Positions 35,457 through 58,905 of a stretch of DNA of 58,905 bases are shown one piece after another; position 1 is the stretch's first letter, and each line of letters begins with the position of its first letter. The stretch is from NCBI GenBank assembly GCA_027532555.1, contig JAPZTJ010000010.1:1-58905 (forward strand), read 5' to 3'. A program made the translations under genes and the position numbers. The notes beneath the pieces were generated by a model. That model did not search any database. It saw nothing but the letters and a program-made list of their open reading frames with translations, and was not told the origin of the DNA. Source of the DNA: Aquidulcibacter sp. GTDB lineage: Bacteria > Pseudomonadota > Alphaproteobacteria > Caulobacterales > Aquidulcibacteraceae.

Positions 35457-35531
35457 GCCGCAGTAGCTCAGTGGTAGAGCGCATCATTGGTAATGATGAG
35501 GTCGGGAGTTCAATCCTCCCCTGTGGCACCA
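35457..35531 (+). tRNA. tRNA-Thr (anticodon GGT)
   Basis: A full cloverleaf is visible. The acceptor stem GCCGCAG (35457-35463) pairs with CTGTGGC (35521-35527, one G-T). The D-arm is GCTC/GAGC, the anticodon stem CATCA/TGATG holds loop TTGGTAA (anticodon GGT), and the T-arm GGGAG-TTCAATC-CTCCC has one base-loop variation. The discriminator A and CCA are encoded. A short T run follows. This gene marks the switch from core genome to accessory island. Confidence 0.97.
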
Positions 35532-36032
35532 GTTTTTCCTTATAAATCAAATCGTTAAGAGATAATCCAAGCTTCAAAATAGGTTTATAAAGTTACCTAT
35601 TTTTTCTTTGCTACCAATTTGCTACCAAGTTTTGCCAAGTGTAGTCATGAAGAGATCTGTGGATAACTCTGCCAGTCCAACATATCGCGCGCATTCCATA
35701 TGCGACTAACAATGGCGATAGGCGGTTTGTTGCAACCTGCAAATGCAAGCCACGATGCCAGCAGGCTGTTTGGTAGTTTTCTTTTGTTGGCCAGCGCGTG
35801 GAAACTACAAGCCGATTTCAACGCAGTTGCAACCGATTTATCCAAGCTAAAATTGACGACAATTGGCCGAAAGCGGTTGGTCTGGTTTGGAGGACGTGGG
35901 GTCGGTAAGCAGACGTTCGGTGGAACAAGTTATCGCACGACGGTGCCTGCAGCATTGGTCGTAAGGATGGGCGCGCCGTGATGGTGGGTGTGTAGCCAGT
36001 TGAGCGTGCCAGCTTGGCCGCAGCGTGTAATT
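35532..36032. other. Gene-free junction downstream of tRNA-Thr (probable attachment-site region)
   Basis: These 500 bases are AT-rich at the tRNA end and contain two copies of TTGCTACCAA (35608-35617 and 35619-35628) at 11-bp spacing, the kind of direct repeat that integrases bind as arm sites. Short open frames on both strands (35645-35845 minus, 35700-35981 plus) have no recognisable similarity and no ribosome site. No integrase gene is present on this side. I read it as the left junction of an integrated island whose recombinase has been lost or lies elsewhere. Confidence 0.4.
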
Positions 36033-37664
36033 TCAGCTCACCTGACGTTCAGACGGGTCCCACCAAGCTGAGCGCAGCGCCTTCTTATCTATCTTTCCGA
36101 CGGAGGTTAGCGGTAACTGTCCAACAACTTCAAATGATTTGGGGACATGGGCCGGCCCCTTGCGCGAACGGACCCAGCTAGCGAGATCATCCTGGCTGAC
36201 TGAATAGCCCGGGCGAATCACGATGTAAGCCTTTACTGCCTCCCCCCACCTATTGTCAGGCACGCCGATAACAGCCGCTCCAGCAATCGCCGGGTGGGCG
36301 TTCAGAACGTTTTCCACTTCGCTTGGAAATACATTGAAGCCCCCAGAGATCACCATTTCTTTTTTTCGATCTACAATGAAAAGCCGCCCCTCTTCATCCT
36401 GCCAACCGATATCGCCTGTACAAATCCAACCATCCTTGATGGTTGCAGCAGTTAGGTCAGGTTGATTCCAGTAACCTTGCATCGCATAGGGAGCGCGTAC
36501 GCATATCTCTCCCTTTATACCCGCCTCTGTCATCAAACCGCTGTCATCAAGCACGCAGACTTCGCAGTCGAGCAAAGGATGTCCAGCAGAAGCTAGTAGC
36601 TCGGGGCGAGCTAGGCTGTGGTCTTCGGGTCGAAGCGAGGCTATCCCAAAGCATTCAGTCTGACCGTAAAGTTGGCAAAAAACTTGGCCAATGCGGTCAA
36701 GCCCTTCCTCAAGGCGAGATGGAGCAATGGGAGAGGCACCGTATAAAAGCAGCTCCAATGAGGTCAAATCAGCGCGGCTCCAAGTCGTATGGTCGAGAAG
36801 CGCGTATATCATCGATGGAACGAGCAATGACATATTGGCCTTAGAGTCAAGAAGACGTCGGATAAGTGCGTCCGGCTCAAATCCAGACATGAGATCGACG
36901 GTGCCCCCTCTAGCAAGTACCGGCGTAATGAACATACCCGCCGCATGACTAATAGGCGCGGCGGCCAAATAAACTGGCAATTTCGGAAGTGGGAAGTTTG
37001 CTAGAACAGCAATAGACCCTGCAGTAAGCTCCCTATGACTGCGTCTTACACCCTTTGGACGGCCAGTTGTCCCACCCGTGTAATTGATGATCGCTAGCTC
37101 ATTCGGTCGCGATAAATCTTTCGGACTAAATGACGCATCCATCGCCTCTGCAATTAGATCTTTTCCAAAGGACGCAGGGCCCAGAACTAAAGTGGTTGGG
37201 ACAGATGCGTCAACGCAAAGCTGGCCCGCTCGGTCGCCAAATGCAGGGTCTAAAATCAAGGCTGTGGCACCTGAGTCGGCAATCTGGTCAAGATGATCTT
37301 GGTGGGACCCAAGTGGATGAAGGGAAGTGGTTGCCGCACCCAACCCATTACAAGCCACGCTAGCGCACCAAGCTTCAAAATTGTTTGAGGAAAGACCAGC
37401 AATGACGTCCCCGCGCCCAATTCCGGCCCTAACCATCGCCGCTTGCATTCGGCCTATTAAGTCTCGCGCAGCCCTATAACTAATCGCCCTTTTGCCAGCC
37501 ATAAAGGCGGTACGTTCACCAAAGCGCGCCAAAGCATGTAATACGAAACTTGCATGGGTGGGCCCATCATGCCAGTCCAACCTCATTGCCAACCCTGCCA
37601 ATCGAGCTTCTGTGCTGGGTAAGTCGTTACAAAATACAAGAGATTCCCTCCCGAACGCATCCAT
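36033..37664 (-). CDS. AMP-forming acyl-CoA synthetase / carboxylate-CoA ligase
   Basis: This 543-residue ANL-superfamily enzyme activates a carboxylic acid as acyl-AMP and then as CoA thioester. Motifs in order: YTGGTTGRPKGVRRSH (P-loop), YGQTECFGIASL, GEICVRAPYAMQGYW, WICTGDIGWQDEEGRLFIVDRKKEM split across the hinge, and TSVGKIDKKALR with the catalytic Lys. An alternative ATG at 37586 would remove 26 residues. The acyl substrate is unknown. A GATAC-N6-GTATC palindrome lies at its promoter. With the two dehydrogenases and the hotdog protein it could start side-chain beta-oxidation. Confidence 0.9.
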   Translation of the reverse strand: MDAFGRESLVFCNDLPSTEARLAGLAMRLDWHDGPTHASFVLHALARFGERTAFMAGKRAISYRAARDLIGRMQAAMVRAGIGRGDVIAGLSSNNFEAWCASVACNGLGAATTSLHPLGSHQDHLDQIADSGATALILDPAFGDRAGQLCVDASVPTTLVLGPASFGKDLIAEAMDASFSPKDLSRPNELAIINYTGGTTGRPKGVRRSHRELTAGSIAVLANFPLPKLPVYLAAAPISHAAGMFITPVLARGGTVDLMSGFEPDALIRRLLDSKANMSLLVPSMIYALLDHTTWSRADLTSLELLLYGASPIAPSRLEEGLDRIGQVFCQLYGQTECFGIASLRPEDHSLARPELLASAGHPLLDCEVCVLDDSGLMTEAGIKGEICVRAPYAMQGYWNQPDLTAATIKDGWICTGDIGWQDEEGRLFIVDRKKEMVISGGFNVFPSEVENVLNAHPAIAGAAVIGVPDNRWGEAVKAYIVIRPGYSVSQDDLASWVRSRKGPAHVPKSFEVVGQLPLTSVGKIDKKALRSAWWDPSERQVS

Positions 37665-37698
37665 CGGTCATATCGAGTCTATTCGATCTGGCAGAAGT

Positions 37699-37714
37699 GA
37701 TACTAATTTGTATC
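37699..37714. promoter_or_regulatory. Operator candidate GATAC-N6-GTATC at ligase promoter
   Basis: GATAC (37699-37703) TAATTT GTATC (37710-37714) lies 35 bp before the ligase start. On the minus strand TTGACT (37731-37736) followed 18 nt later by TACAAA makes a plausible promoter whose -10 lies inside the palindrome. The inner 11-mer ACTAATTTGTA is repeated exactly at 46681-46691. Confidence 0.55.
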
Positions 37715-37878
37715 ATTTTAATCCAATGGCAGTCAACAAGCCTTGCTGCTTGGTTTAAGAGATTCGAAGCCGCGATCTGGGGAAACAGTTAGCGACATGG
37801 ACTGTGATGATCCTTTTGTACCCGTCGAGGCACAGAAATACGCTAACGACACTCAATTTCGGCTAATATAGCTAACTG

Positions 37879-38835
37879 CTAAAACTCGTATAACTCAGAA
37901 GAGGCCTTGAGGAAGGCTTGATTGAGCAGCATCTCGGCACACAGCCGCGAAGTTGCTTTTTCACGAACCATAGTCCGTATCCACATTGATTCAGTTTTGG
38001 GGGTTTCGCTCAAGTGGACGATTTTGCGCTCAAGTTCATAATTAACCCCCGGGTAGAGCGGCCCGTCGATGACAACAACCTCCTGATCGGCAAAAAGGCC
38101 TACAACAGGTTGGCGAATCGGAAATGGATCCTGATCCGCAACCGACTGGCAAAGGACGCTGATCATTTCAACAGGCAGAATGGCTCTGGTCCATGGTGTA
38201 TTTGTCTCCTCTGAGTACCATGGACTCGGCTCGGTTATGACATCCAACTTTTCAACAAGACTGAAGGGGTAAAGGCCACCTAAAGGTGTTTTAGCATCCA
38301 GCCGAATACAAACCTTTGGTGCAGCTAGCCCCGGATGGCAGCCAGCGAGAATACGTGGCTCGGCTAGTGCTCGTGAAGCGGTAAGCCGCTGACGTGCGAA
38401 GCTATTTTCTGGGGGGCTCCCAACTCCTGCATTCCCCATAAGTACAACTGTGCCATCACGCTTCACCATCGATAGATTGGCGGAGTCCGAGGCAACTTGA
38501 CTCATTCTGGCCTGAAGCTCCTCGCCTTCATAGCTAGCCTGTTTGTAGGTTACAGAAATACTACCGAAATCAAACCAAGAGGAGCCGAAGGCATGGTATA
38601 AAAGGGGCGCGAACTGGCTGAAATGCGTAGGCCCCTCGATTGTGCCGCCTTGAAAGCCCAAACCTTGGGCAGTCGCATCATCGTGTATTGAAGCGTGATT
38701 GGCGTAGCTCTGTCGCTTCAGCAAGTTGATTGGACGGCGCCAAGGCCCCACAAGGATAATTGATCCATCTTGCCCCCTTTCCTCGCGGATTGTTGCAGAA
38801 AAGGGATGTTGCAGCATTCCGTCACTCGGCGTCAT
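37879..38835 (-). CDS. Probable double-hotdog MaoC-like protein
   Basis: The protein has 318 residues. In the N-terminal half, SYANHASIHDDATAQGLGFQ followed by GTIEGPTHFSQF resembles the hydratase dyad region (N/D-x-x-x-H with a downstream G-F-x-x-x-I-x-x-G) of MaoC-type enoyl-CoA hydratases. The second half looks like another hotdog repeat without catalytic residues. Double-hotdog proteins hydrate bulky 2-enoyl-CoAs. The gene start overlaps the stop of the DUF1254 gene by 4 bp. A thioesterase role is the main alternative. The family match is by eye and moderate. Confidence 0.5.
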   Translation of the reverse strand: MTPSDGMLQHPFSATIREERGQDGSIILVGPWRRPINLLKRQSYANHASIHDDATAQGLGFQGGTIEGPTHFSQFAPLLYHAFGSSWFDFGSISVTYKQASYEGEELQARMSQVASDSANLSMVKRDGTVVLMGNAGVGSPPENSFARQRLTASRALAEPRILAGCHPGLAAPKVCIRLDAKTPLGGLYPFSLVEKLDVITEPSPWYSEETNTPWTRAILPVEMISVLCQSVADQDPFPIRQPVVGLFADQEVVVIDGPLYPGVNYELERKIVHLSETPKTESMWIRTMVREKATSRLCAEMLLNQAFLKASSELYEF

Positions 38836-40223
38836 GGCACTTCCTCAACTCGGGGCAGAAGATATCGGCCATTTAGTAGACTCGGGTCAGGATTGTAGGC
38901 TCGTAATACCAACGCAAACCGTGCTCCCGATGCAGGTAGCCAATTTGACCGCCTGCTTTCACCAGGGTCTCTGGCACCGATCCAAATCGTCAATGAACCA
39001 TCTGCTTCAGTACGTAGTCCCGGTGTCCGGTCGCCGACGGCATAGCGACCGAGCGGATTTTGCGCGAAAAAGAGTCGACCATCCCCTAGAGCTTCATAAA
39101 GGCTTAGTGACCAAAAGGCCCTGGCTGGTGGTAAACCTCCTGGCGGGAACCGAAGTACAAAGGATGTGTCTGCCGGAAAAGTGGTTTGTCCATCCCGGGC
39201 AATAGCCCTGAGATAAACCGCTTCCTTCAGGGGTAGCGCTCCAAGCCCCCAAGTAGCGATTGATGCGCGATAGATGTAGTCGGCACCGAAGTCTCCAAGG
39301 CTTACTTCGGGATATATCCATCCGGATCTGGCACCACTCAATGCTAGACGCTTGGCGATGCGGTTTCGTGCATCCTGTAACCCTCTATCAATCGCGCTAC
39401 GCCTGGAATGGGCCACTTCTGCAAGGCCCAGAGGGGTTAGCCCAGCCTGCTCCCAACGTTCCCGAAGCTGATGCTCGCCCGCAAGGGGCGGTGCTTCGGT
39501 AGCGAGCAATCCAACAATCGCTTGGAGCTCTTCGAAAGCGTCGGTAGTGGCCGGTACAGGACCAGGTGGCGGCGATTGAGCTCCCACGATCCGAAGGCCA
39601 TCTTGGAGTTGGTGCGCAACGCCAATATCTTCCGGCCCAGAGACCAAGGTCCGAACCTGCGCCCATACCCAATGTGTTGGAGCAACAATCTCATCGCCGC
39701 TGGCACGTTCTTTCGGCGCGACAAGTCGCACACGGCCGGAGTCACCAAGCGTTTGCCTTGGGCCTAAGACAACAAAATTGTTAGTGTACATATCGAGGAT
39801 GGCGATGGAGAGGTAACGCTCGGATGCCTTGGGATATGTGAGCTCCACCGGCCCCTTTCGCAAGTCCAGCCAAGCAGAAGAGTAAAGTGTGTCATTATTT
39901 GGCGTCGTGACTCGGCGAGACGAAGCGTCAGCCAGCCGACGGACATGCCTCCATTGATTGGCCGCACTCCCAATCGTACGCTGCCGCGCTCGTGCCATTT
40001 CGAGTACAGGCAGGCCATAGATGTATAGGTCACCGCAGGCCGCCTCAAAACTGGCTAGATCATTTGAAAATGTCGAAGTGCAGGCGCCCACACTCGCCAA
40101 CCCCATAACTGATGCCCAGCTTAATAGCATGCGCCTATTTGGAGATTGTTGAGGCCCCGATCCCTCGGGGCATTTGGCCAGATACTCCGCGCCGCCTAGA
40201 TCGCTGTTCATAAAGTACGACAT
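38832..40223 (-). CDS. DUF1254/DUF1214 domain lipoprotein
   Basis: This 463-residue protein has SPNRRMLLSWASVMGLASVG followed by Ala-Cys (Cys48), a Tat-like signal with a lipobox. Residues about 65-190 match DUF1254 (DLYIYGLPVLEMARAR; TTPNNDTLYSSAWLDLRKGP). The C-terminal 130 residues match DUF1214 (FPPGGLPPARAFWSLSLYE; NPLGRYAVGDRTPGL). Proteins with both domains are exported and common in catabolic clusters, but no activity is firmly assigned. The gene is 2 bp after the GntR gene and overlaps the hotdog gene, forming one operon. Confidence 0.82.
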   Translation of the reverse strand: MSYFMNSDLGGAEYLAKCPEGSGPQQSPNRRMLLSWASVMGLASVGACTSTFSNDLASFEAACGDLYIYGLPVLEMARARQRTIGSAANQWRHVRRLADASSRRVTTPNNDTLYSSAWLDLRKGPVELTYPKASERYLSIAILDMYTNNFVVLGPRQTLGDSGRVRLVAPKERASGDEIVAPTHWVWAQVRTLVSGPEDIGVAHQLQDGLRIVGAQSPPPGPVPATTDAFEELQAIVGLLATEAPPLAGEHQLRERWEQAGLTPLGLAEVAHSRRSAIDRGLQDARNRIAKRLALSGARSGWIYPEVSLGDFGADYIYRASIATWGLGALPLKEAVYLRAIARDGQTTFPADTSFVLRFPPGGLPPARAFWSLSLYEALGDGRLFFAQNPLGRYAVGDRTPGLRTEADGSLTIWIGARDPGESRRSNWLPASGARFALVLRAYNPDPSLLNGRYLLPRVEEVP

Positions 40224-40225
40224 GG

Positions 40226-40972
40226 CTAGGATTGCGTTGTCCTGCGCTTACGTTGAACGAAATCAATCGCGGGCGAACTTTGGCTCTGCCTCAATGCGCT
40301 TGCATTTAACTCAACCGCTCGCGCAACACCTTGAGAATGCATGGCGCGTGCTTGTGAAAACGCGGCAGCCCCAGCTCCAGCCGCTATTAGCTTGAAAAGC
40401 TTCTTATACCCGCTGAGGTCTTTCAGTCGCATATCGCGTGTTGCGATGGCCAAGTGGCCATATAACTCTGCAGCACCAATGCTAAGATCCCTTATTGATT
40501 GGGTCAGTCGAGCCGATCCAACAATGACATTCATTTGCGCAACATAACGATAGGTTGCGACCTGGAATGCACGGGCGGTAGATGCCGGGTTCCGGGCAAT
40601 TTGCTCCAATTGCTCTAATTCCCGCCGGAGGGCTTCAACTCCCTCAGGAGTGGCAGCCGACGCGCATCGCTCTGCGAGCAGCGCAAACAAAACCTCCCGA
40701 ACGGCCAGCAAATCCTGAACTTCGCGATCATCAAGCCTTATGACGAATGCACCACGCTGTGGCACAATCTTAACGAGGCCCGATGACTCCAGCAGTCGCA
40801 ACGCTTCCCTAAGTGGGCCACGGCTAACGCTGAATCGCTCAGCCAACTCAACCGTCCCAAGGTGAGAACCTGGCAGAACCTCCCCGGACTGGATCATCAA
40901 GCGAATCTGACGAGCCAAGGCGGGAGGGCTGCGATCATCACCTGAAGGAGAGATAAATCCATAGGCAGTCAT
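40226..40972 (-). CDS. GntR-family (FadR-type) transcriptional regulator
   Basis: The protein has about 248 residues. The winged helix-turn-helix at residues about 13-80 includes LARQIRLMIQSGEVLPGSHL, LAERFSVSRGPLREALRLLE and RGAFVIRLDDREV. An all-helical FCD effector domain follows. The ATG at 40972 is preceded by AAGGAT; the frame to 41053 is probably leader. FadR-type regulators usually repress catabolic genes until an acid or acyl-CoA effector binds. It is the first gene of the operon with DUF1254 and the hotdog gene, and a TGTTGACA motif lies upstream. Confidence 0.9.
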   Translation of the reverse strand: MTAYGFISPSGDDRSPPALARQIRLMIQSGEVLPGSHLGTVELAERFSVSRGPLREALRLLESSGLVKIVPQRGAFVIRLDDREVQDLLAVREVLFALLAERCASAATPEGVEALRRELEQLEQIARNPASTARAFQVATYRYVAQMNVIVGSARLTQSIRDLSIGAAELYGHLAIATRDMRLKDLSGYKKLFKLIAAGAGAAAFSQARAMHSQGVARAVELNASALRQSQSSPAIDFVQRKRRTTQS

Positions 40973-41113
40973 TAAGTTGCATCCTTTACTGAATGGCTGA
41001 CCAACGGCTATCTCAGCCAACCGAGGAGAGCAGCTACTTTGCACGAAGTGCAAAAGCTGATCCCTGTATAGGTCTTCAATTTACCTCATTATGGAGACGT
41101 TTTCAAGGAAATA

Positions 41114-41127
41114 TGTTGACAGATTAA
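41114..41127. promoter_or_regulatory. GntR operator candidate (TGTTGACAGATTAA)
   Basis: This motif differs at two positions from TGTCGACATATTAA at 43106-43119. It lies about 140 bp upstream of the GntR start and fits the T-GT-N-AC-A half-site logic of FadR-type regulators. Self-regulation is inferred. Confidence 0.35.
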
Positions 41128-41272
41128 AGCACGAAGCTGCTGATTCCGACCTTTGCGCGTATAGACCGAATTCAGGGGAGCACTTCAATCTGAATAATAG
41201 CCTCCCGTTCCCAATACACCGACCAAGGTTCAGTTCTTTAGTTGGCCATATTTTTAAGGTAAACTATCTGTA

Positions 41273-41288
41273 CTGATAGACCTATCAG
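41273..41288. promoter_or_regulatory. Perfect 7-bp inverted repeat CTGATAG-AC-CTATCAG
   Basis: The arms match exactly with a 2-bp spacer. It lies 50 bp after the 3' end of the DmdC-like gene, with no T tract, so a protein-binding site is more likely than a terminator. The binding protein is unknown. Confidence 0.3.
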
Positions 41289-41337
41289 GAACTCGAGCGG
41301 CTCAAGTTGCGGGGCCCAGAGTTTGCTGGTCTCGCTT

Positions 41338-43071
41338 TCAGCCGACCATAAAGCGGGGGTCTAGTTCACCATATGGTGCCGGCATTCCATCGAGAATGTT
41401 CTTAGAAACTGCTAATGATTGCTGTAAAATCAATTGGATGAAGCAGAGTGACGCCGCTCGTTTGGCAGGGGCGGCACCGCCTATTTTCCCTCGCAAAGCT
41501 TTTATCTGCCTAAGCCATAACCAAGCAACAATCGTGTCGCCAACAAAGATAGAAAATGGACTTGCCCAAGCACGTGCATCGACTTCGCGGCCAGTTACCA
41601 GCTTAGCCGTACACTCTTGAATATTACTCACACATGTCACCAAGGCTTCGAAAAGCGCTACCTCGTGCTGACCCTGGATTGAGCTAAGGTCGGAAACGAT
41701 TTCTTGCAGAAATTGCAGTAGGGTGGCTCCGCCATCGCTTCGTACGCCTCTGAGGACGAAGTCTATCGCTAAAATACCACTCGTGCCTTCATGAATCGTG
41801 TTGAGGCGCTGGTCCCGGAATAGTCTTTCTACTGGATGATCACGCGCATACCCGGCTCCTCCCATAACCTGGATCGCTAGCGAGTTTGCCTCAAGGCCGC
41901 GTTCTGAGCACCAATGTTTCACAAGTGGGGTTAAGAGACCAAGTCGGATCCTAGCCCGCGACGCCTCACTTATATCCGGGTGACTAAATGCGTCATCTAC
42001 CATTCGGGCCCCGTATAGACAAAGACATAGACCGCCTTCGCAAATGGCCCGCTGTAAAAGCAGCATTCGCTGGACGTCGGCGTGGCCGATAATGGCCATA
42101 GGCAATCCTGTTTCGCGGTCGCGCCCTTGAAACCGCGTCTGTGCATACTCTGTTGCATGCCGGAACCCTGCATACGCTGTCGCTGCAGCTGTCACCCCGA
42201 CACCGATTCGGGCTTCATTCATCATGTGGAACATATATGAGAGGCCTAAATGGGGTTTGCCGATCAGATACCCAATTGAAGGACCCTTTGCACCAAATTC
42301 CAACGCACAATTTGATGTGCCACGATGGCCAAGCTTGTGATTAAGGCCGATTGTGGCAACTCCATTTGATTCCCCGTCAAGGTTCATCTTTGGCACAATA
42401 AGGAGTGAGAGACCTGAAGCGTTTGTTGCACCCCCGTCAATCCGCGCCAACACAAGATGGATTATGTTGGCTGTGAAATCTTGGTCTCCCCCAGAGATCC
42501 ACATTTTGGTCCCGGTGACATCGTAGGAACCATCATCGCGCAATACGGCCCGGGTCCGAATCTCGCCGAGCGCCGATCCTGCTTGAGGCTCACTTAGGCA
42601 CATGGTCCCGGTCCAGATTCCATCGCGCATTGGATTTATAAATGTTGACTTCTGCCATGTATCGCCAAACGCTTGAATGACTCTGGCTGCAGCGGTGGTG
42701 AGGAATCCATATCCTGCTGCAGGGTTACATGCCGCTCCAAATATTGCCATAAGTGCCGTTGATATGCACGATGGTAATTGAAGCCCCCCATTTTCGAGGG
42801 TCAAACCAGCGCCTAGTAATCCAGCATCGGCATAAGCATGAAACGCCTGAGCCACATCATCGTGGACCAACACTCTGCCTTCAACGAATAACGGCTCTTC
42901 TGCGTCGATTCTAGCAGCGATCGGGGAAAACTTACGCTCAGCTAAGTCATCCGCGGCGGACAGAATGTTCGCTAAGTCAAGCCTGTCTAAGTGACCAAAA
43001 GTCGGCCAGGTTAACACGGCCTCAGCCCCCAGCACATCACCTAAAAGGAATCGCAATTCTTGTAGCAGCAA
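41338..43071 (-). CDS. Acyl-CoA dehydrogenase, large DmdC/FadE-like type
   Basis: The protein has 577 residues, about 180 longer than classic acyl-CoA dehydrogenases. It has an extra N-terminal helical region (LQELRFLLGDVLG) and a C-terminal extension, as in 3-methylmercaptopropionyl-CoA dehydrogenase (DmdC) and relatives. Motifs: GTMCLSEPQAGSALGEIRT (FAD), GTKMWISGGDQDF, HKLGHRGTSNCALEF, and NTIHEGTSGILA with the catalytic Glu. The start is TTG at 43071 with AGGTG upstream; family members often begin about 8 residues earlier. Many DmdC-like proteins act on other acyl-CoAs, so DMSP metabolism is not implied. A TGTCGACA palindrome lies 35 bp upstream. Confidence 0.88.
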   Translation of the reverse strand: MLLQELRFLLGDVLGAEAVLTWPTFGHLDRLDLANILSAADDLAERKFSPIAARIDAEEPLFVEGRVLVHDDVAQAFHAYADAGLLGAGLTLENGGLQLPSCISTALMAIFGAACNPAAGYGFLTTAAARVIQAFGDTWQKSTFINPMRDGIWTGTMCLSEPQAGSALGEIRTRAVLRDDGSYDVTGTKMWISGGDQDFTANIIHLVLARIDGGATNASGLSLLIVPKMNLDGESNGVATIGLNHKLGHRGTSNCALEFGAKGPSIGYLIGKPHLGLSYMFHMMNEARIGVGVTAAATAYAGFRHATEYAQTRFQGRDRETGLPMAIIGHADVQRMLLLQRAICEGGLCLCLYGARMVDDAFSHPDISEASRARIRLGLLTPLVKHWCSERGLEANSLAIQVMGGAGYARDHPVERLFRDQRLNTIHEGTSGILAIDFVLRGVRSDGGATLLQFLQEIVSDLSSIQGQHEVALFEALVTCVSNIQECTAKLVTGREVDARAWASPFSIFVGDTIVAWLWLRQIKALRGKIGGAAPAKRAASLCFIQLILQQSLAVSKNILDGMPAPYGELDPRFMVG

Positions 43072-43105
43072 ACGAGCACCTAATGTTTACATATTATAAG
43101 TTATG

Positions 43106-43119
43106 TGTCGACATATTAA
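43106..43119. promoter_or_regulatory. GntR operator candidate (TGTCGACATATTAA)
   Basis: The palindromic core TGTCGACA extends to TATGT-GTCG-ACATA (43102-43115). It lies 35-48 bp before the dehydrogenase start on the minus strand. Its 9-mer GTGTCGACA recurs upstream of the sulfatase gene at 55569-55577. Confidence 0.4.
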
Positions 43120-43289
43120 CAGAATGGTTTGACACAAAGCAAGTTATTTCTTGCAACTAAAGCTAAAAATTCGTGGTTGGCGGGTTTGCCTTCGACATTG
43201 TACGATTTTGTAGGTGCCCCATTCGACAGGTCGTGCAATGCCAATTGTCCTGAAAGCTTCTTGATCTTGAGAAAAATGCGTTGTTATAT

Positions 43290-50514: not shown

Positions 50515-50531
50515 ACTCGCATGCTAGTTTG

Positions 50532-50828: not shown

Positions 50829-51083
50829 TCAACCCAGTCGGAGCTTCATGTACAGTGTCGCCATTGCAAACGGCATAACGATCAAGTTGGAAATCGTCAC
50901 AGGCCCGCTGCCAATTGCTACCCCGTATGCTGACCAGAGCACCGTTCCAACCGCTCCAAGTGCTACCGCAGTCAAAGACAGATCGTGCGTTTGGCGAGTT
51001 CGTAACGCGCGGATTGCTTGCGGCAAGAATGCACCGCCCGAGGCTGCCGACGCTGCGTAGCCTAGTATCTCTATTAATTGCAA
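50829..51083 (-). CDS. SemiSWEET-type small sugar transporter
   Basis: This 84-residue protein has three membrane helices and the PQ-loop signature SGGAFLPQAIRALRTRQTHD in the first helix pair, followed by a final helix around TISNLIVMPFAMATLYMKLR. SemiSWEETs form dimers that let sugars or similar small solutes cross the inner membrane without energy input. It sits between IS5 and IS66 remnants, suggesting that it came in with mobile DNA or survived deletion around it. Confidence 0.85.
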   Translation of the reverse strand: MQLIEILGYAASAASGGAFLPQAIRALRTRQTHDLSLTAVALGAVGTVLWSAYGVAIGSGPVTISNLIVMPFAMATLYMKLRLG

Positions 51084-51155
51084 CGTTTCACCTCGATGGC
51101 GTGCCTACCGGCAGCTTTATGACGGACCCCAATCGCGCACAAGTGGTCGATTAGG

Positions 51156-51350
51156 GTAAGCGTCCGGTCTGACACGCCTTGACCGATCAAGCGGGCTGTG
51201 GCGCGACGTCGGGCTTCCAGTTCCACGGCAACAGCTCGTGGAGGCGTTTGTTGGGGTAGTCATCGATGCGGGGAAGGTTGTCGGCAAGCCATGCTTCGGG
51301 ATTGATGGCGTTGAGCTTTGCGGTTTCGATGAGCGAGTAGATGGCAGCAT
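51156..51350 (-). mobile_element. IS66-family transposase (TnpC) C-terminal remnant with IS end
   Basis: On the minus strand LIETAKLNAINPEAW, DDYPNKRLHELLPW and a stop at 51187 form the IS66 transposase C-terminal element. GTAAGCGTCC beginning at 51156 matches the GTAAGCG end typical of IS66 inverted repeats, so the right boundary is visible. Similarity stops abruptly near 51350. The rest of the element, including tnpA and tnpB, is gone. Confidence 0.8.
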
Positions 51351-51467
51351 CATGCTGTGGTTGGAGCCGGAATTTTGGAGTCTAAAGCCGAAGCCGCGAA
51401 AAATTGCTTCGCTCGAGCAGTTCCATGGGATTAGTGGTCGGTGAATGTCGGGCTAGTCGAAAGGCGG

Positions 51468-52730
51468 CTATTTTGCCAAAGTTGGGATAAGAATTTTACT
51501 TGAAATTGCGTCTGCCAGTTTTGATACCAATTGGGAGTTTCCTTCCGTCAATGTTCCACCAACCATGAAGCCGGGCCAGTCCTTTATTTTAATCCACCCG
51601 TCAGCCTGACCGTCCAAATCCGTACCCGTCATGTTCGGGTTTCCGAAGAAGACTAGCAACTTACGGTTTTGGTCGATAACTTTTGGATCATCCCATTTAG
51701 CACGAAGCGCGTCATAGGTCCGGGGCATCTTCGTGGTCGAAGGATAGTCAGGATTTTTCAAGCTCACCGAGTAACTTGGCCTGTGTGCGGTTATATCTGT
51801 CCAGACCGCTATTACCGGATAGACAGCCTGTAGGGGCTTGCTGCCACCCTCGGGAAGGTCGCCTACCTTCGCCCAAGCCGAATCCATCGATTCATTAACA
51901 CACTCTAGCCCCGATTCGGGCAGATCCCAACCACCACTGGCCTTCTCGGGGTTCACATAATCGCTGAACTTCGTCCTGTCATTGGGAAGATTAAAGAATG
52001 CGGAGGATTTCATCGGTGGATTGTCGCCAACCGCCTTCCAGTAGTCAGGATGGGAAGAGTTAATCGTTATCCATTTAGTGCCATCAAACCATGATGCAGG
52101 GTTAGTTCCCGTTAAGTTTTGTCCGCCGAAATCTCGGAAATAGATGACTCGCACGCGCATGGCATCAAAGGCCTTAATGCCGCGCTTTTCCAATTCGGCA
52201 TTGAGGTTCGTCTCTAGATTAAGCGCATTGGTCTTGACGGCGTTCAATGTCGGCGTCATTGACCCTGTCGCGTCAATACACATCACGATGTCTAATTGCC
52301 GGATCTCCGGTCGCGCAATAGCTGCAGTAGCTTGCACGCGCGACGTAAAGTAGGATATTCCAACAAGTGAAGCAAAACGCGTCGGAATACTCAGATCTGC
52401 TTGGCCTTCCATATTTGCCTTATCAGCGGTCATCTTGAATTCTTTGCCTGTCACCATCGCACTCTCTTCAGGTGTTAGGTTCGCTGCAAAATGACGCTCT
52501 GCAATCTGCACCCGTTCGCCATCCGCATCGTCCAATCTGGCTGCAGCTAAAGTCGCCGCATCGACGGCCAATTGAAACTTGGTCTCCAACTTTGACTTTT
52601 CCGTATAATCCACTGTCATGCCTACTAGGAGCAAACCGCTGAGGGCAAAAAGAGCAAAAGCAATTGCTAGCGAACCCCGACTATCTGTTCTAAGCAGTCT
52701 CAAAAATCTTACAAATTTAAAGCTTTCCAT
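51468..52730 (-). CDS. TadG-like protein with von Willebrand factor A domain
   Basis: This 420-residue protein has DSRGSLAIAFALFALSGLLL (residues about 16-35), the TadE/TadG-type membrane anchor, then AVDAATLAAARL typical of TadG. A vWA domain begins at about residue 145 with the metal site DIVMCIDATGSM. TadG proteins assist Flp-pilus assembly or act as surface adhesins. No other tad gene is present, so it is an orphan. It follows the alpha/beta hydrolase on the same strand (46-bp gap) and may be co-transcribed with the sulfatase. Confidence 0.82.
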   Translation of the reverse strand: MESFKFVRFLRLLRTDSRGSLAIAFALFALSGLLLVGMTVDYTEKSKLETKFQLAVDAATLAAARLDDADGERVQIAERHFAANLTPEESAMVTGKEFKMTADKANMEGQADLSIPTRFASLVGISYFTSRVQATAAIARPEIRQLDIVMCIDATGSMTPTLNAVKTNALNLETNLNAELEKRGIKAFDAMRVRVIYFRDFGGQNLTGTNPASWFDGTKWITINSSHPDYWKAVGDNPPMKSSAFFNLPNDRTKFSDYVNPEKASGGWDLPESGLECVNESMDSAWAKVGDLPEGGSKPLQAVYPVIAVWTDITAHRPSYSVSLKNPDYPSTTKMPRTYDALRAKWDDPKVIDQNRKLLVFFGNPNMTGTDLDGQADGWIKIKDWPGFMVGGTLTEGNSQLVSKLADAISSKILIPTLAK

Positions 52731-52776
52731 TTCAAGATGCTCCGTTTTTGGCTGTCCTGATCCATCGCTTCAGACC

Positions 52777-53682
52777 TTAATGGTCCCGATCTAGCTTTGC
52801 TTTTGGTTGAGAAATCTGACTTGAGAATTCGATAACTGCACGTGCAACTGCAGCGGGTTGTTCGGGCAGGAGCGCGTGGCCCGCGCGATCGATTTGGACA
52901 ATCTGAACGCGTCCTGGTGCCGCTTCTCGCACTGCATCTGCGTTTTCTGGAGGTGCCAGGACGTCCTGTAACGGTTGCACGACGAGGATTGATGCCCGTC
53001 CTGCCCCCCACCATTTGTCCACGGACGTGCGTTGGCTCGCGTTTATTTGTGCCTCGGCCACGTCACGCCGCCAACCATCCCGCCAAGCGGTTGGCTCATT
53101 ACCAGGCGCGAAAAATGCTCGGGCAACATGACCCATGCGCTCTGCCTCGGGCAAGGAAAGATCGAATGACGCCAGCAGAGATTGCTCTATATGCGGGGCC
53201 ATCGCGACCTTCCCGCCGGCTGCCAGCAGGATGACAGCCTGCACCAGATCTGGCCTAAGGGCTGCGCTCATTCTTGCAACTCGATTGCCGAATGCGTGAC
53301 CAAGGACAATTACCGGTCGCTTGTCAGTGCTGCTCTCGATGACATCAGCAACATCATCTGCCAAATCGTTGAGCCGCACGTCTGCTGAGTAGGACGCGGA
53401 CCTCCCAAAGCCGCGGGGCTCGGGACATATCGCTCGAAATCCAGCATCTGCGACTGCGTTTGCAAGCAATCGGAAGTCACTGGCACCGCGGCCAAGGGAG
53501 GGAATCATGACAATTGCCGGAGCGTCACTGGGGCCAACGACAAGTACCTCAATGACGCCATTACGGCCATTGACGAGGGTTCTCTCTTCCAAGACTTGCC
53601 GCCGAATGGACCTGCATGCTCCAACCACAAGGAGCCCTCCAACGGCACTTCGACGGGAGAGGAGTTTCATATTCATCGCCAT
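52777..53682 (-). CDS. Alpha/beta-hydrolase-fold lipoprotein with Ala at the nucleophile position
   Basis: This 301-residue protein has an N-terminal Tat-like SRRSAVGG, then LLVVGAC, giving a lipobox at Cys23. The fold is clear: SLGRGASDFRLLANAV, CPEPRGFGRS, nucleophile elbow VLGHAFGNRVARM, QPLQDVLAPPENA (acid) and DRAGHALLPEQP (histidine). The elbow codon is GCA, so Ala130 replaces the usual Ser. It lies 3 bp after the sulfatase stop and is surely co-transcribed with it. It may be non-hydrolytic (binding protein) or use other chemistry; three closely spaced ATGs (53682, 53676, 53670) are possible starts. Confidence 0.8.
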   Translation of the reverse strand: MAMNMKLLSRRSAVGGLLVVGACRSIRRQVLEERTLVNGRNGVIEVLVVGPSDAPAIVMIPSLGRGASDFRLLANAVADAGFRAICPEPRGFGRSASYSADVRLNDLADDVADVIESSTDKRPVIVLGHAFGNRVARMSAALRPDLVQAVILLAAGGKVAMAPHIEQSLLASFDLSLPEAERMGHVARAFFAPGNEPTAWRDGWRRDVAEAQINASQRTSVDKWWGAGRASILVVQPLQDVLAPPENADAVREAAPGRVQIVQIDRAGHALLPEQPAAVARAVIEFSSQISQPKAKLDRDH

Positions 53683-53685
53683 CGC

Positions 53686-55299
53686 TCAATTGAACATCTC
53701 TACCCACATATTTTCGACTTCAGCGGCCACACCTCGTCGACTTGTCCATTGAGGCTCAATGTTCCCCGCATTCCACTGATCCCACTTTTGTAGAAGTTCC
53801 TTGACCTTTTCGGGATGACGTTCCGCCAGATTGAACTTTTCACCGGGGTCGACCTCCAGATCGTAGAGAAGCGTCCATTGTCCTAGCGCAGACACGACGG
53901 CCGGCACCCCGTCAGGCCTCATCGATCTGGAGAGATCGTCAGTCGCCCGATTGGCCGGTGCACCGCCAACCGGTGCCGAACGATTAACAACCACCAATTT
54001 CCAACGTCCTTCGCGGACGATTCGAGTGGGTCCCATGCGCCAGAATAGTGCCCGACTTGAATGCGCCGCAGGATCCAGAACCAGACTAACGAGGTTACGC
54101 CCCTCTGCGCCCGGATGGGCAACGCCGGCTGCAGCCGCAGCAGTTGCGGCAATATCCAATGCGCTGACAGGATTAGAGTAGACACCTGGAGCTATTGATC
54201 GTGGCCAGGATACAAGAAAAGGCACCCTAATGCCCCCATCCCAAGGGTAGCCCTTCCAAGCTTGGAGTGGCGCATTGGAGCAAGCACCGCCAATATAGCT
54301 TGGGCAACCGTTGTCACTCAAAAAGACAATCAATGTATTGTCATAGGTACCAGTTGTCTTCAGGTGCCGAACTAATTTCCCAATCCCATCATCCATTGCA
54401 GTAAGCATCGCTGCATACACCCGATGGTAATTTGTAGGCTTCTCGCCGACCCGCGATAAATAATGCGCCGGTGCCTGCAGCGGTGTATGCGGTGCAGTAT
54501 ATGCCAGATATAGGAAAAATGGCTTCTCGGAACGACGATCTACAAACTCAATGGCCTTGTCAGTGAAGACGTCCGTTACATAGGCATCGGGCTCCACACG
54601 GGTTCGGCCATCGAAAATTGGTAAGCGATCGCGTGTAATGAGTTTGTCTTCGGCTGTCTCAACATGGAGGTCGTTTGGCCCAATCGCGGTCAAATAAGGC
54701 GTTGCTCCCCCAAGAACCCCGTAAAAACTATCAAAGCCGCGATCGAGCGGGGTATAACCTTCTGTTTGGCCCAAGTGCCATTTTCCCACAATGCCTGTTC
54801 GGTAACCAGCGCCCTTTAGAGTTTGGGCGATCGTGGTTTCTTGAAGCGACATGCCACGCTGAGTATCGCGACCCGCTGGATTAAACTCAAAACCGAACCG
54901 GGTTTGCTGACGACCGATCATGAGTCCTGCCCGTGAAGGTGCGCAAACTGCTGCCGTGGCATAGCCATGTGTCATACGGACACCCGAAGTCGCGAGGGCA
55001 TCTATGTTTGGAGTTGGGATCCGACCCCCGTTTGCACCGATGTCGCCGTACCCAAGATCATCGGCGACGATAACAATTATATTGGGCTTGCCCGAGGACT
55101 TTGACATGGCCGCCGACATTGCCAAAGTCGTCTGTGGCAATTCATCACCAACCGCTTGAGACCGACAAGCCGATAGCGATAGCGTAATTCCAAATGTGCA
55201 TGCAATTCCCAATGCGACCCGTAAAGATTTGATCGTTTTCCTGGTCCACTCTCTTGCATATGCATGGTGCCGACGGGTTGAGTCGAAGTTAAAAATCAT
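53686..55299 (-). CDS. Sulfatase (arylsulfatase-type), lipoprotein
   Basis: This 537-residue protein has lipobox SLSAC with Cys45. NIIVIVADDLGYGDIGANGG supplies the metal-binding Asp pair. AAVCAPSRAGLMIGR contains C-x-P-S-R at 119-123, whose Cys is converted to formylglycine. GKWHLGQTEG, PHTPLQAP and LSDNGCPSYIGG complete the active site. It hydrolyses a sulfate ester, probably facing the periplasm or outer surface. The start ATG 55299 lies well before the hydrophobic core of the signal. It is divergent from a second sulfatase. No formylglycine-generating enzyme is encoded in the window. Confidence 0.93.
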   Translation of the reverse strand: MIFNFDSTRRHHAYAREWTRKTIKSLRVALGIACTFGITLSLSACRSQAVGDELPQTTLAMSAAMSKSSGKPNIIVIVADDLGYGDIGANGGRIPTPNIDALATSGVRMTHGYATAAVCAPSRAGLMIGRQQTRFGFEFNPAGRDTQRGMSLQETTIAQTLKGAGYRTGIVGKWHLGQTEGYTPLDRGFDSFYGVLGGATPYLTAIGPNDLHVETAEDKLITRDRLPIFDGRTRVEPDAYVTDVFTDKAIEFVDRRSEKPFFLYLAYTAPHTPLQAPAHYLSRVGEKPTNYHRVYAAMLTAMDDGIGKLVRHLKTTGTYDNTLIVFLSDNGCPSYIGGACSNAPLQAWKGYPWDGGIRVPFLVSWPRSIAPGVYSNPVSALDIAATAAAAAGVAHPGAEGRNLVSLVLDPAAHSSRALFWRMGPTRIVREGRWKLVVVNRSAPVGGAPANRATDDLSRSMRPDGVPAVVSALGQWTLLYDLEVDPGEKFNLAERHPEKVKELLQKWDQWNAGNIEPQWTSRRGVAAEVENMWVEMFN

Positions 55300-55636
55300 G
55301 ACGATTCATCCGGTTATGAGTTCAGGAGATATTCTTCGGTCGAAGGACAGTCTGCCGGCCGATGTGAACGGTTCCGATCGATGGGGCTCCGGCCAACCGC
55401 AAGTCAAACCGCCAGCGCCCCCGCGAAAACAAGGCCAGCCAAAAGGCTTCAAGAACGGCATAGTCTTCTTTCCACTAATTCCTTTGCGAAATTCCCAGCT
55501 GAGAACTGGGAGCTACGGCTGTTACCAATGCTGAATAACCTCGCCCCTAACGACAGCGTAACGGTAAAGTGTCGACAATCTATGTTGCATATGTCATCAT
55601 ATTATGTCAAGTGGATGGTCAAAGCTGGGGTACTTC
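55300..55636. other. Divergent promoter region between two sulfatase genes
   Basis: No gene is seen in these 337 bases. The plus-strand side has the palindrome TGTCGACA (55570-55577) followed by two direct copies of TATGTC inside CATATGTCATC and ATTATGTCAA (55589-55610), just ahead of the plus-strand sulfatase. A CCCAG/CTGGG inverted repeat lies near 55494-55510. Confidence 0.45.
55570..55577. promoter_or_regulatory. GntR operator candidate (TGTCGACA)
   Basis: This 8-bp palindrome, 9 bases with the preceding G, is identical to that upstream of the DmdC-like gene. It lies 60 bp before the sulfatase start, a typical operator distance. Confidence 0.35.
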
Positions 55637-57115
55637 ATGGGAATTCGAAAAACTATCGCCGCTATCGCTTGCATCCTCTTTGCTTCCGGTTGCGCAAGCC
55701 AACAAATCAAGCTTGGTGCCGCGCCGGAGACCCAATCATCTCGCAAGCCAAACATAATCCTCATAGTCGCTGATGATCTTTCGCAATTGGATTTGTCCAC
55801 TTATGGCCGGTCCCCAAAAAGCATTCCCACCCCTAATTTAGACCGGTTGGCCAAGCGTGGAGTCACATTCAAGCGCGGCTATTCAACAGCATCAGTTTGC
55901 AGCCCATCCCGCGCGGCTTTGATGACGGGGCAATATCAACAGCGCCACGGATTTGAGTTTCTGACACCGGAAGGACCCGATGGTGGGGGGCACGGACTTG
56001 CCGCTAGCCAACGGGTCTTCGCTCAAGATCTCCAAACTGGAGGCTATCGCACCGCAATGATCGGTAAGTGGCATTTGGGTTCAACGAAGGATCGCATTCC
56101 AACATCTCGTGGATTTGATCAATTCTTCGGATTTCTTTCTGGCGAGACCGCTTACGCCGATGAGAAATCGGAAGGCCTTATCAGTGTAACAGCGCCCTAT
56201 GTTGGCAAGCGAAGCTTCGCCAGAAATGCAGATTGGATCAAGCTCTTTTCCGACTTTGCGGATGACGCCAATCCTCCAAAGATCGAGAATGATGAGGCAA
56301 GTTACCTGACCGATCTGTTAACACACAAGGCGGTTGAGTTTATCCGATCTTCCGGAACAGAGCCCTACTTCCTGTACCTCGCGCATTTGGCACCCCACTC
56401 GCCATACCAGGCACTCGAAACGGACGTTTCCCGCTTCTCACACATCAAGGACCCACTTGAGCGCACCTATGCAGCGATGATTTCCTCTCTCGATCGCAGT
56501 GTAGGAATTGTACTTAATGCGGTGGAAGCTTCCGGCGCGGCCGAAGACACACTCATCATTTTCACAGCTGATAATGGAGCGGCAACCTACATGGGTGTCT
56601 CTGACTGTGAAACGCTTGCCGGGGGAAAACTGAGCTACTTTGAAGGCGGTGCAAGGGTCCCTCTAATTGTTAGCTGGCCGCGGCGTTGGCCAAGTGGAAC
56701 AAATGATAGCCGCAATGTCTCTCAGCTTGATCTTGCTCCAACGATATTGGCTGCCGCAAAAATCGAAGCAGCAAATGCTTTTGATGGAAGAGACCTCACA
56801 CCGCTTATGGTGCCCGCGCGGTTAGCTGAGGCAGTCCACGAGACACTTTTCTGGCGCACCGGGTCGGAATATGCGGTGCTTTCAGGGGACCTTAAGCTCC
56901 TCTCAAATACTCGCCAAGGTGCCTTTCCTTGGCTCTTCGACCTAGCCTCAGATCCTCGCGAAACCAGAAGCCTGACCTTTGAAAGGCGATCTGAGGTAGC
57001 AGACTTACAACAACGCTATCAAGACTGGGCCAAATCTATGAAGCCACCGGCTTGGCCGGCGAAACAGGTAGTGCAGGTGTTTCAATGTGGAAGGATTTCA
57101 TTTCATGAACAATGA
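55637..57115 (+). CDS. Sulfatase, lipoprotein
   Basis: This protein has about 492 residues from the ATG at 55637 (the frame opens at 55604). Its short signal ends in lipobox FASGC, Cys19. [19 protein letters not shown] gives the metal Asp pair, and [16 protein letters not shown] holds C-S-P-S-R at 88-92 (formylglycine site). [19 protein letters not shown] and [12 protein letters not shown] follow. It resembles the neighbouring sulfatase but is clearly diverged, so the pair may act on different positions or on successive intermediates. The downstream acyl-CoA dehydrogenase overlaps its end by 11 bp, tying desulfation to acyl-CoA metabolism. Confidence 0.93.
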
Positions 57116-58334
57116 TCAAGCCTCTAGCCTATTTCCATTCTCGAGCCATGGAATTGAGACGCTAGCAAAGGTGAAGACCTTCATGCGCAAACATGTCGTG
57201 CCTGCCGAAGCAATATTTGATGAGCAGGTAAAGGATGCTCGTACACCCTGGCTAACGCCACCGATTCTTGATGAGCTAAAGGCCAAAGCTCGCAAAATGG
57301 GGCTTTGGAATATGTTTTTGCCCGAACTCCACCCGGGACCGCCGCTGAGCAACCTAGATTATGCACCAATTGCTGAGGAAATGGGCCGGATTGTGTGGGC
57401 AAGCGAGGTCTTTAACTGCAACGCTCCAGATACGGGTAACATGGAGGTTCTTGAGAAGTACGGGACGCCCACCCAAAAGGATCGCTGGCTCCGCCCGCTC
57501 GCTGATGCTAAGATCAGATCCTGTTTTGCTATGACTGAACCACAAGTCGCTTCTTCAGATGCCACAAATATTGAGACTCAAATCAGTCGTGAAGACGACC
57601 ATTATGTCATTAACGGCCGAAAGTGGTGGATAACCGGCGCTCTCAATCCACGGTGTGAATTCGCGATCTTGATGGGGAAAACTGATCCCTTTGGACCAAA
57701 GCACCGACAGCAGTCTATGATTATCGTTTCTCTGAACACACCCGGTGTCAAGATTATGCGTCCTCTTAGAACCTTCGGGTTTGACGAACCATCACATGGA
57801 CATGCTGAATTGGTCTTTGATAATGTAAAGGTGCCTTTGGAAAACATCCTACTTGGCGAGGGGCGTGGGTTCGAGATTTCTCAAGGTCGTCTTGGACCTG
57901 GACGAATTCATCATTGCATGCGCCTAATTGGACTTGCGTCTCGAGCTCTGGAGGCTATGTGTGCCCGGGCTTCGTCTAGACGCACTTTTGATCGCGCTAT
58001 TGGTGATCACGGCGTGGTCCGTCGTTGGATCGCGCAATCACGTATCGAGATTGATCAGGCACGGTTGCTTGTTTTGCAAGCTGCACTGCGGATCGATCAG
58101 GTAGGGGCCAAGGGTGCACGCAAGGATATTGCTATGATCAAACTGGCCGTGCCACAAATGGCCCAGACTGTCATTGATCGGGCGATCCAAGTTTTCGGCG
58201 GTGCCGGCCTTTGCGATGATCACTTCCTCGCCTATGCCTTTACGGGCGCGCGGATTCTCCGAATTGCTGACGGCCCAGATGAAGTCCATGCGGAGACGAT
58301 TGCACGGTTGGAACTGAAGGCTCAGACCGGGTAA
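57105..58334 (+). CDS. Acyl-CoA dehydrogenase, ACAD10/11-like
   Basis: This protein has about 409 residues. The ATG at 57105 lies inside the end of the sulfatase gene (11-bp overlap) with GGAAGGA upstream. Motifs: [34 protein letters not shown] (FAD), [34 protein letters not shown], and [12 protein letters not shown]. The C-terminal [19 protein letters not shown] replaces the YEGT loop, as in the ACAD10/11-like group that prefers bulky, 4-hydroxy or branched acyl chains. It introduces the 2,3-double bond in an unknown acyl-CoA. Coupled translation with a sulfatase is unusual. Confidence 0.9.
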
Positions 58335-58475
58335 ACCGTTTGGGCGTGGCTCCCTGAAATCGTGCAACGGTGAGTTACGGCAAAGCTCTAATTCCCAATG
58401 GTCCAAATTTCAGGTGGCAGAGCAGCCTACGCGAACGGCTCCCCCTAACCCAGGGGCATGTTATGGATTGGTCGG

Positions 58476-58905
58476 TTAGAAGGTTTTCTCGATTTGAAGC
58501 GCGAAAATTGGGCTGCTGGTGCGATCGCGAAACTCGGCGCTACTGATTGGTGCAATGCCGCGCAGTCCCATATAGCGGGTCAGTTCGCGATCAACGCGGC
58601 GGCCGAACAACTCGTTGACCTCGATGCGCATCTTGCTCGCTGATCCTACGGCCCATTCGGCAAAGATCGAAAAGTCCGGCCCACTTTTGAACTCGCTTTT
58701 CGACTGGCTGCGGAAAAATCGATAGGGCGGGTCATATCTGACTGCCGCGCCATAGCTGACGCGTGGGTTGATGATTTGACGATAGTTGATCGTCGTACCG
58801 GCGAACTCGGCATTTTGTAATTGCCGCGTCGCGCCATTGAACGGATCTTGCACCGAGGTTTCTCGCCAAGCTGCATCCACTGTCAGTTCTGCACCATCTA
58901 GCAAA
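58476..58905 (-). CDS. Probable TonB-dependent receptor, C-terminal part (runs off right edge)
   Basis: About 143 residues are visible, open to the window end. The sequence alternates in beta-barrel fashion (TINYRQIINPRVSYGAAVRY; SKMRIEVNELFGRRVDREL) and ends LQIEKTF with the terminal Phe required for outer-membrane insertion. The segment resembles the barrel end of TonB receptors of the outer_membrane_beta-barrel type. The plug and signal peptide are outside the window. It is convergent with the acyl-CoA dehydrogenase. Confidence 0.55.
   Translation of the reverse strand, partial: LLDGAELTVDAAWRETSVQDPFNGATRQLQNAEFAGTTINYRQIINPRVSYGAAVRYDPPYRFFRSQSKSEFKSGPDFSIFAEWAVGSASKMRIEVNELFGRRVDRELTRYMGLRGIAPISSAEFRDRTSSPIFALQIEKTF

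Follow-up and report, generated by a model that had tools for sequence, protein, structure and literature searches.

A tRNA-Thr island of Aquidulcibacter with a sulfatase, esterase and acyl-CoA cargo

Genomic islands that tyrosine recombinases insert into tRNA genes follow a common plan, in which the 3' half of the tRNA serves as attachment (att) core, the tRNA is regenerated and relatives retain empty sites. In such islands and in integrative mobilizable elements, an integrase with an arm-binding domain lies next to one end, and the cargo is variable and accompanied by a relaxase-like gene. We take the integrases of these islands to be of the P4 type. Here we describe an element of this already known kind, which shares all these features and starts at tRNA-Thr(GGT) in contig JAPZTJ010000010.1 of Aquidulcibacter sp. 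(GCA_027532555.1). The window, i.e. the whole stretch of DNA that was analysed, is this complete contig (C18, 58,905 bp) of a genome (G000) of 3.49 Mb in 74 contigs, and it was compared with eight sister genomes (G001-G008; nine genomes in all, including G000). The locus differs from the described islands in two respects: near-identical integrases are found at both the GGT and the CGT isoacceptor of tRNA-Thr and share one double 10-bp arm repeat at the island ends that were examined, and the cargo is a set of 14 genes that combines two sulfatases (S1 and S2) and esterases with enzymes of acyl-CoA metabolism, including a double-hotdog protein.

The integration target is an intact tRNA-Thr(GGT) gene at 35457-35531 on the plus strand, detected by ARAGORN and Rfam. 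The sequence from its anticodon loop to the 3' end plus GT forms the attL core (35487-35533, plus strand), and an exact copy is located at C53:12967-13013 (47 of 47 bp). This copy of the tRNA 3' half marks the far boundary of the island. ARAGORN finds no tRNA-Thr there, and the copy is flanked on one side by pyrC (TIGR00856, E 9e-137) and on the other by a tyrosine recombinase gene (C53:13241-14539), which encodes 432 amino acids with a Phage_integrase (PF00589) and an Arm-DNA-bind_3 (PF13356) domain. Right of the tRNA the window itself has no detectable integrase, and a search with the integrase in all 755 phage records gave best places below 60% identity. The left end of the island (35534-35890) is conserved: together with the tRNA (35400-35890) it shares 93-96% identity with the left end in G007 and with G002 and G004, whose islands have other cargo. 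At its inner edge lies a short dispersed repeat (35863-35918), which occurs at 17 other places in G000 (E up to 0.1), among them C53 and C38, and which could be a point of cargo exchange.

Within this conserved end we identified a double 10-bp repeat, TTTGCTACCAATTTGCTACCA (35607-35627, plus strand), which is the putative arm-type site of the island integrase. With at most one mismatch it is present five times in G000 (C18, C53, C70 and twice in C45), in all five cases at an island end beside an att core, and its orientation does not change between the two sides of the core or between the two ends of the island. The copies on C70 and C45 belong to a sister site at tRNA-Thr(CGT), and the C45 copy at 2812 is the one with a single-base difference. 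Across the nine genomes the pattern occurs at 28 places in eight genomes, and the reversed pattern, which served as control, has no match in any of them. G003, where the site is empty, possesses neither the arm repeat nor an integrase at E 1e-80; G006 and G008, which also have an empty GGT site, contain four copies and one copy elsewhere, and at the right end of the island in G007 the repeat is interrupted by an N. A further pair, one member with a mismatch, was found 24 kb apart at G004:C1:529018-552880 beside a 46% identical integrase, and the arm repeat may also mark islands of more distant integrases.

The state of the site in the sister genomes is in line with site-specific integration. 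In G003, G006 and G008 the tRNA-Thr is directly followed by pyrC, and in G005 a single gene lies in between. The site is filled in G002, G004 and G007, and in G004 the tRNA and a 45-bp att copy are found on a single contig about 91 kb apart, together with an integrase that is 95% identical; the cargo of this island differs and includes one distant sulfatase (29% identity to S1). In G001 the contig with the tRNA-Thr stops 640 bp past the tRNA. The G002 island at the same tRNA has a quite different cargo, which encodes a small protein whose leader, judged by eye, resembles the double-glycine type (L112, 1501-1968). The sister islands at the tRNA-Thr with anticodon CGT (G000:C70:110104 and C45:2770-4475; L119, L147) have an integrase with 95% identity and carry these arm repeats as well. 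On C45, where an alpha-L-rhamnosidase gene is also located, an island right end is directly followed by left-end-like sequence, and therefore tandem islands seem to sit at the CGT site.

On sequence grounds, the existence of the island is all but certain. The original prediction, which was made from the window, had proposed a tRNA-bounded accessory island and had named as checks a matching tRNA 3'-end repeat farther right and the presence or absence of the genes right of tRNA-Thr among relatives. The att repeat, the integrase and the empty sites bear this out, the repeat does exist on another contig (C53), and the cargo is present in only G001 and G007 among the sister genomes. We propose that window positions 35487-58905 would be the left part of a site-specific island, in which the tyrosine recombinase at the far end would catalyse recombination between attP and the tRNA-Thr(GGT) 3' half, so that the tRNA would stay intact and its 3' copy would end up next to pyrC. 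Because the window spans the whole of contig C18, the island is cut off at 58905; this position was rejected as island end, as the contig ends within a two-copy repeat.

A comparison of cargo and core revealed a pronounced difference in identity. G001 and G007 contain the cargo DNA of window 35900-54900 at 98-99% identity, with no such block in the other six sister genomes, and a second comparison of the G001 cargo gave 97.6-98.5% nucleotide identity. The core left of the tRNA (15000-34900) has 77-85% identity to G001 and G007 in matches longer than 1 kb, and G002 is the nearest relative by core (89-90%), yet lacks the cargo. The contrast between about 98% in the cargo and 77-85% in the core indicates that the cargo moved recently. 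The double-hotdog protein (E 1e-20) and S1 (E 1e-100) occur in the same three of the nine genomes, and proteins encoded by Aquidulcibacter paucihalophilus TH1-2 and by a metagenome-assembled genome of Hyphomonadaceae share 95-96% identity with S1. A search with S1 in all 756 plasmid records gave best places below 60% identity. An insertion sequence (IS) probably interrupts the left end in G001 and G007, where the break lies at about window position 35868-35870. The G001 cargo extends to window position 58426 and is followed by 499 bp that match the C53 integrase end at 92%; since it joins the integrase end directly, the cargo there appears to consist of no more than the 14 genes. The G001 island may be a deletion derivative, and a general cassette boundary at C53 14842, taken from this junction, was rejected because C53, C45 and G004 share sequence further inward.

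Several contig ends of G000 have 141-bp tails in common (C18/C40, C15/C42, C15/C70 and C53/C45), and the C15/C70 ends overlap those of C53/C45 by 118 bp. By pairing the tRNA isoacceptors we infer for the own island a path from C18 over a collapsed TonB/kinase repeat to C15, C53 and pyrC with a length of about 55 kb. The far end of C53 encodes a partial protein matching the relaxase RlxS (4e-39; 135 bits versus a full-length cut-off of 850), in which PF03432 gives a weak match (E 0.06). VirB4 was matched on C32 and C48 only and on none of the contigs assigned to the island (C18, C15 and C53), and in this respect the island differs from an integrative and conjugative element. Taken together, the RlxS match and the restriction of VirB4 to C32 and C48 lead us to call the island probably mobilizable and not conjugative, and it probably moves by mobilization with its relaxase-like gene. 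Its far part on C53 (25935-35828, L118) contains a run of GntR, TonB, DUF1254/DUF1214, MmgE/PrpD and carboxylesterase genes, which is a variation on the theme of the cargo.

The 14 cargo genes are located between 36033 and 58334, and all but the double-hotdog protein were assigned to families by Pfam and NCBIfam. On the minus strand the cargo starts with an AMP-binding acyl-CoA ligase (36033-37664), whose nearest solved relative is FadD8, the double-hotdog protein (37879-38835), a DUF1254-DUF1214 protein (38832-40223), a GntR/FCD regulator (40226-41053) and acyl-CoA dehydrogenase 1 (ACAD1, 41338-43071). ACAD1 falls into the class of enzymes of about 590-610 amino acids and has the unnamed acyl-CoA dehydrogenase 8r1e as best solved relative, with FadE5 among the matches. 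Next come a plus-strand gene (43368-45596) in which an LpqC/feruloyl-esterase-like domain is fused to a beta-lactamase-fold serine hydrolase domain, according to family and structure matches, a TetR regulator (45977-46621, minus strand), the TonB-dependent receptor of the cargo (46723-49125, plus strand) and an LpqC-type esterase with C-terminal EF-hands (49297-50514, plus strand). For the LpqC-type proteins the solved relatives are LC-Est1C, feruloyl and acetylxylan esterases. The last five genes are a TadE/G-like protein (51468-52730, minus strand; PF13400 with 21.4 bits versus a cut-off of 22.3), an alpha/beta hydrolase (52777-53682, minus strand) in line with S1 (53686-55299, minus strand), S2 (55604-57115, plus strand) and acyl-CoA dehydrogenase 2 (ACAD2, 57087-58334, plus strand), an ACAD11-like protein of 415 amino acids whose gene overlaps the end of S2. 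By pattern matching, lipobox-like N-termini are present on S1, S2, the alpha/beta hydrolase, the DUF1254 protein and the fused esterase; the better lipobox of S2, ASGC, was picked by eye.

The gene families named in the original prediction are thus present, the hotdog protein by its model fold, and the TadE/G-like protein was missing from that list. Its IS remnants fit three adjoining multi-copy, IS-like stretches at 50541-51352. The two TonB receptors announced there were both seen; the second one is only a C-terminal part of 142 amino acids cut by the contig end (58476-58904, minus strand) and, by sequence comparison, belongs to a different module of cytochrome b561, response regulator, histidine kinase and TonB receptor. 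We rejected it as a part of the pathway, because G004 has this module in an island that lacks the present cargo, and in G001 the cargo is not followed by it; in G007, on the other hand, the module does come after the cargo. Left of the tRNA the window contains a dispersed repeat of 500-640 bp (26658-27305), of which G004 has at least 24 copies and the sister genomes many more. Its copies are mostly 75-97% identical and several are located at contig ends, no Rfam family exceeds its gathering score in this repeat, and for a 200-base piece a fold of -88 kcal/mol is predicted, a value given without shuffle comparison.

The cargo proteins resemble several well-described enzyme groups. Both S1 and S2 contain PF00884 and the CxPSR motif (in S1 CAPSRAGLMIGR), the formylglycine site of sulfatases, as is typical of S1 formylglycine sulfatases. 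Their best solved relatives are kappa/iota-carrageenan sulfatases (6prm, 6bia, 9fo1) with E-values of 4e-81 for S1 and 8e-73 for S2, which places them next to the S1_19/S1_16 carrageenan sulfatases by solved matches only. In contrast to these, the cargo sulfatases are set among acyl-CoA genes and without galactan-degrading enzymes; the sequences point to galactan (carrageenan) sulfatases as nearest relatives in a cargo without any glycoside hydrolase. A sulfated phenolic or sterol ester and an algal sulfated polyester, which the original prediction had suggested, are candidate substrates at most. ACAD2 aligns over nearly its whole length with ACAD11 and bacterial ACAD11-like proteins (2wbi, 8v3u, 4hr3; E 4e-141). 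In ACAD11 an aminoglycoside-kinase-like domain is fused to the dehydrogenase, whereas ACAD2 consists of the dehydrogenase domains only, no kinase domain was found by Pfam in any of the 14 cargo genes, and solved ACAD11-type chains of 778 amino acids extend further at the N-terminus. The hotdog protein has no match in Pfam or NCBIfam. Its model, built from nine sequences (mean pLDDT 82, pTM 0.85), is predicted to adopt a double-hotdog fold of the MaoC/hydratase-2 type with mesaconyl-CoA hydratase MeaC (8hgn) as best match (E 7e-10), from which it differs by the missing sequence-family match and a TM-score of only about 0.5.

These solved relatives of the sulfatases, esterases, ligase and dehydrogenases support extracytoplasmic desulfation and de-esterification, TonB-dependent uptake and cytoplasmic acyl-CoA oxidation, which may be consecutive steps. 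Outside the inner membrane, the two lipobox-bearing sulfatases together with the LpqC-type and alpha/beta esterases would act on a sulfated ester, the TonB receptor would import substrate or product, and GntR and TetR would regulate the process. In the cytoplasm, the acyl-CoA ligase, the two acyl-CoA dehydrogenases and the hydratase-2-like double-hotdog protein would oxidise the acyl or acid part. That a mobilizable tRNA-Thr island carries a cargo for desulfation and de-esterification of an organic sulfate followed by acyl oxidation is the reading we favour with good confidence; that the cargo is one single pathway is plausible, with chances about even.

Evidence for a gene set comes from a second cluster in the same genome. 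On contig C38, homologues of 10 of the 14 cargo genes lie within 24 kb in rearranged order with 70-85% protein identity. The dN/dS values of these ten pairs are 0.05-0.14 at dS values of 1.1-1.8, which are close to saturation, and judged by these ratios the C38 genes are under purifying selection. In addition, the cluster contains a PhyH protein and, placed between S2 and S1, a protein of the FGE-sulfatase (formylglycine-generating-enzyme, FGE) family, an enzyme of the sulfatase-activating type. TetR and TonB homologues are found on C55, the latter in two pieces, and for the two LpqC-type esterases no homologue was found on C38 or C55. An S1-like gene with an FGE neighbour is also present in one of the control stretches described below (L266), so that such pairs exist elsewhere too.

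Outside the genus, S1 was found at 13 places (E < 1e-100) in 11 genomes of three genera among 299 genomes of the order, with at most four candidates scored per genome, and the surrounding 15-20 kb were compared with 20 hand-chosen control stretches of 20 kb from the same or related genomes. A TonB gene accompanies S1 at 11 of 13 loci and is present in 2 of the 20 control stretches (p=3e-5). The corresponding counts are 5 of 13 versus none of 20 for GntR as well as for an LpqC-type esterase (p=0.005 in both cases), 5 of 13 versus 1 of 20 for DUF1254 (p=0.02) and 3 of 13 versus none of 20 for TetR (p=0.05). Two of these loci, L245 and L246 (in G616 and G518), combine S1, S2, hotdog protein, hydrolase, ligase, GntR, TonB, LpqC-type esterase and a third sulfatase in about 13 kb, with an additional nitronate-monooxygenase-like gene in L246. 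The hotdog family is common: counting the own genus, it occurs in 71 of the 299 order genomes and in 10 of 385 class genomes; 22 loci outside the genus were fetched (12 of the order matches and all 10 class matches).

A number of observations tell against our reading. ACAD1 is found beside S1 at none of the 13 loci and in none of the 20 controls, and ACAD2 at none of the 13 loci, with ACAD2-like genes in 3 of the 20 controls. S2 accompanies S1 in 3 of 13 versus 0 of 20 cases (p=0.05), one of them being a piece of 77 amino acids in L265, and with 2 of 13 the p-value becomes 0.15. Ligase (3 of 13 versus 2 of 20), hotdog (2 of 13 versus 1 of 20) and alpha/beta hydrolase (2 of 13 versus 0 of 20) are not significant. 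Apart from L245 and L246, an S1-like sulfatase occurs in 2 of 19 hotdog loci, 15 of these 19 are without S1-like sulfatase, ligase or GntR, and in a twentieth one, L222 (4 kb), the hotdog gene is alone. Furthermore, the controls are few, and the S1 loci come from three genera and are related, not independent. Export of the enzymes is judged from lipobox-like patterns alone. As to the island, it is split over contigs, and its path relies on 141-bp tails and att identity with two repeats that allow alternatives; 13 of the 28 places of the arm repeat were examined in context, in G001 a segment of about 600 bp around the point where the fused esterase ends (window 45387-45982) is divergent, and the 620-amino-acid protein next to the relaxase-like gene has no Pfam match. 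That S1 has no dehydrogenase beside it outside the genus favours a modular assembly. The co-conservation behind the predicted single pathway stands within the genus and is only partial outside it, with a dehydrogenase at 0 of 13 loci and a ligase at 3 of 13; the association of the sulfatase with TonB, GntR, DUF1254 and LpqC holds, and the second TonB receptor drops out of the set.

The strongest competitor is that the island is real and its cargo serves two independent functions, i.e. scavenging of sulfur or a sulfated glycan by sulfatases, TonB receptor and esterases next to an ordinary set for fatty-acid oxidation. The company of S1 outside the genus, where TonB, GntR, DUF1254 and LpqC appear without either dehydrogenase, and the carrageenan sulfatases as best solved relatives are what one would expect in this case. 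It has to be weighed, however, that S2 and ACAD2 overlap and that S2-ACAD2, hotdog-ligase and ACAD1 are still together in the rearranged C38 cluster, that L245 and L246 unite sulfatases, hotdog protein, hydrolase and ligase in line, and that the G001 island appears to carry just this set ahead of the integrase end. We regard two separate functions as a real possibility that falls somewhat short of an even chance. It is unlikely in our view that the cargo degrades a sulfated polysaccharide in the manner of a polysaccharide utilization locus, with acyl genes processing the decorations freed by the esterases. S1 and S2 do score best against S1_19/S1_16-type carrageenan sulfatases, feruloyl and acetylxylan esterases are among the solved matches of the esterases, and the aggregates from which A. 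paucihalophilus TH1-2 originates are called polysaccharide-rich (PMC5712168). In contrast to such loci, no glycoside hydrolase, lyase or SusCD-like pair is present among the 14 cargo genes by Pfam and NCBIfam, and the rhamnosidase of the genome sits at the other tRNA-Thr site (C45). An ordinary accessory region of the chromosome beside a coincidental tRNA, which the slight difference in G+C content (0.552 left of tRNA-Thr versus 0.523 across the cargo) and a right part of the window without integrase might suggest, is rejected by the exact att repeat, the integrase, the empty sites and a relative with both ends on one contig, and is extremely improbable.

Our preferred reading of an organic-sulfate cargo on a mobilizable island can be tentatively extended. 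A. paucihalophilus TH1-2, which is one of the carriers of the cargo, is an isolate from cyanobacterial aggregates (PMC5712168), and the words sulfatase and island do not occur in the main text of that paper. A literature search yielded no publication that pairs DUF1254 with a sulfatase, none on a gene cluster of this kind with sulfatase, acyl-CoA dehydrogenase and TonB-dependent receptor and, at the level of listings, no description of this island. It is conceivable, if rather speculative, that the cargo encodes a complete, horizontally mobile and so far undescribed pathway, whose substrate would be a sulfated acyl ester of cyanobacterial or algal exudates and which one tRNA-Thr integrase family would spread among Aquidulcibacter species. 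In such a pathway the substrate would be desulfated twice and de-esterified in the periplasm and taken up through TonB, and oxidation would follow by the ligase, the ACAD11-like and FadE5-like dehydrogenases and a new family of double-hotdog hydratases.

A guess from a single contig has thereby become a bounded, testable element. Now that its two ends have been located and an integrase, a candidate arm repeat and empty sites identified, the putative excision and transfer are open to simple PCR tests. Furthermore, the cargo points to a recurring set of sulfatase, TonB, GntR and esterase genes in Caulobacterales and to a double-hotdog family without match in Pfam or NCBIfam, and its substrate could explain a part of organic-sulfate recycling in freshwater.

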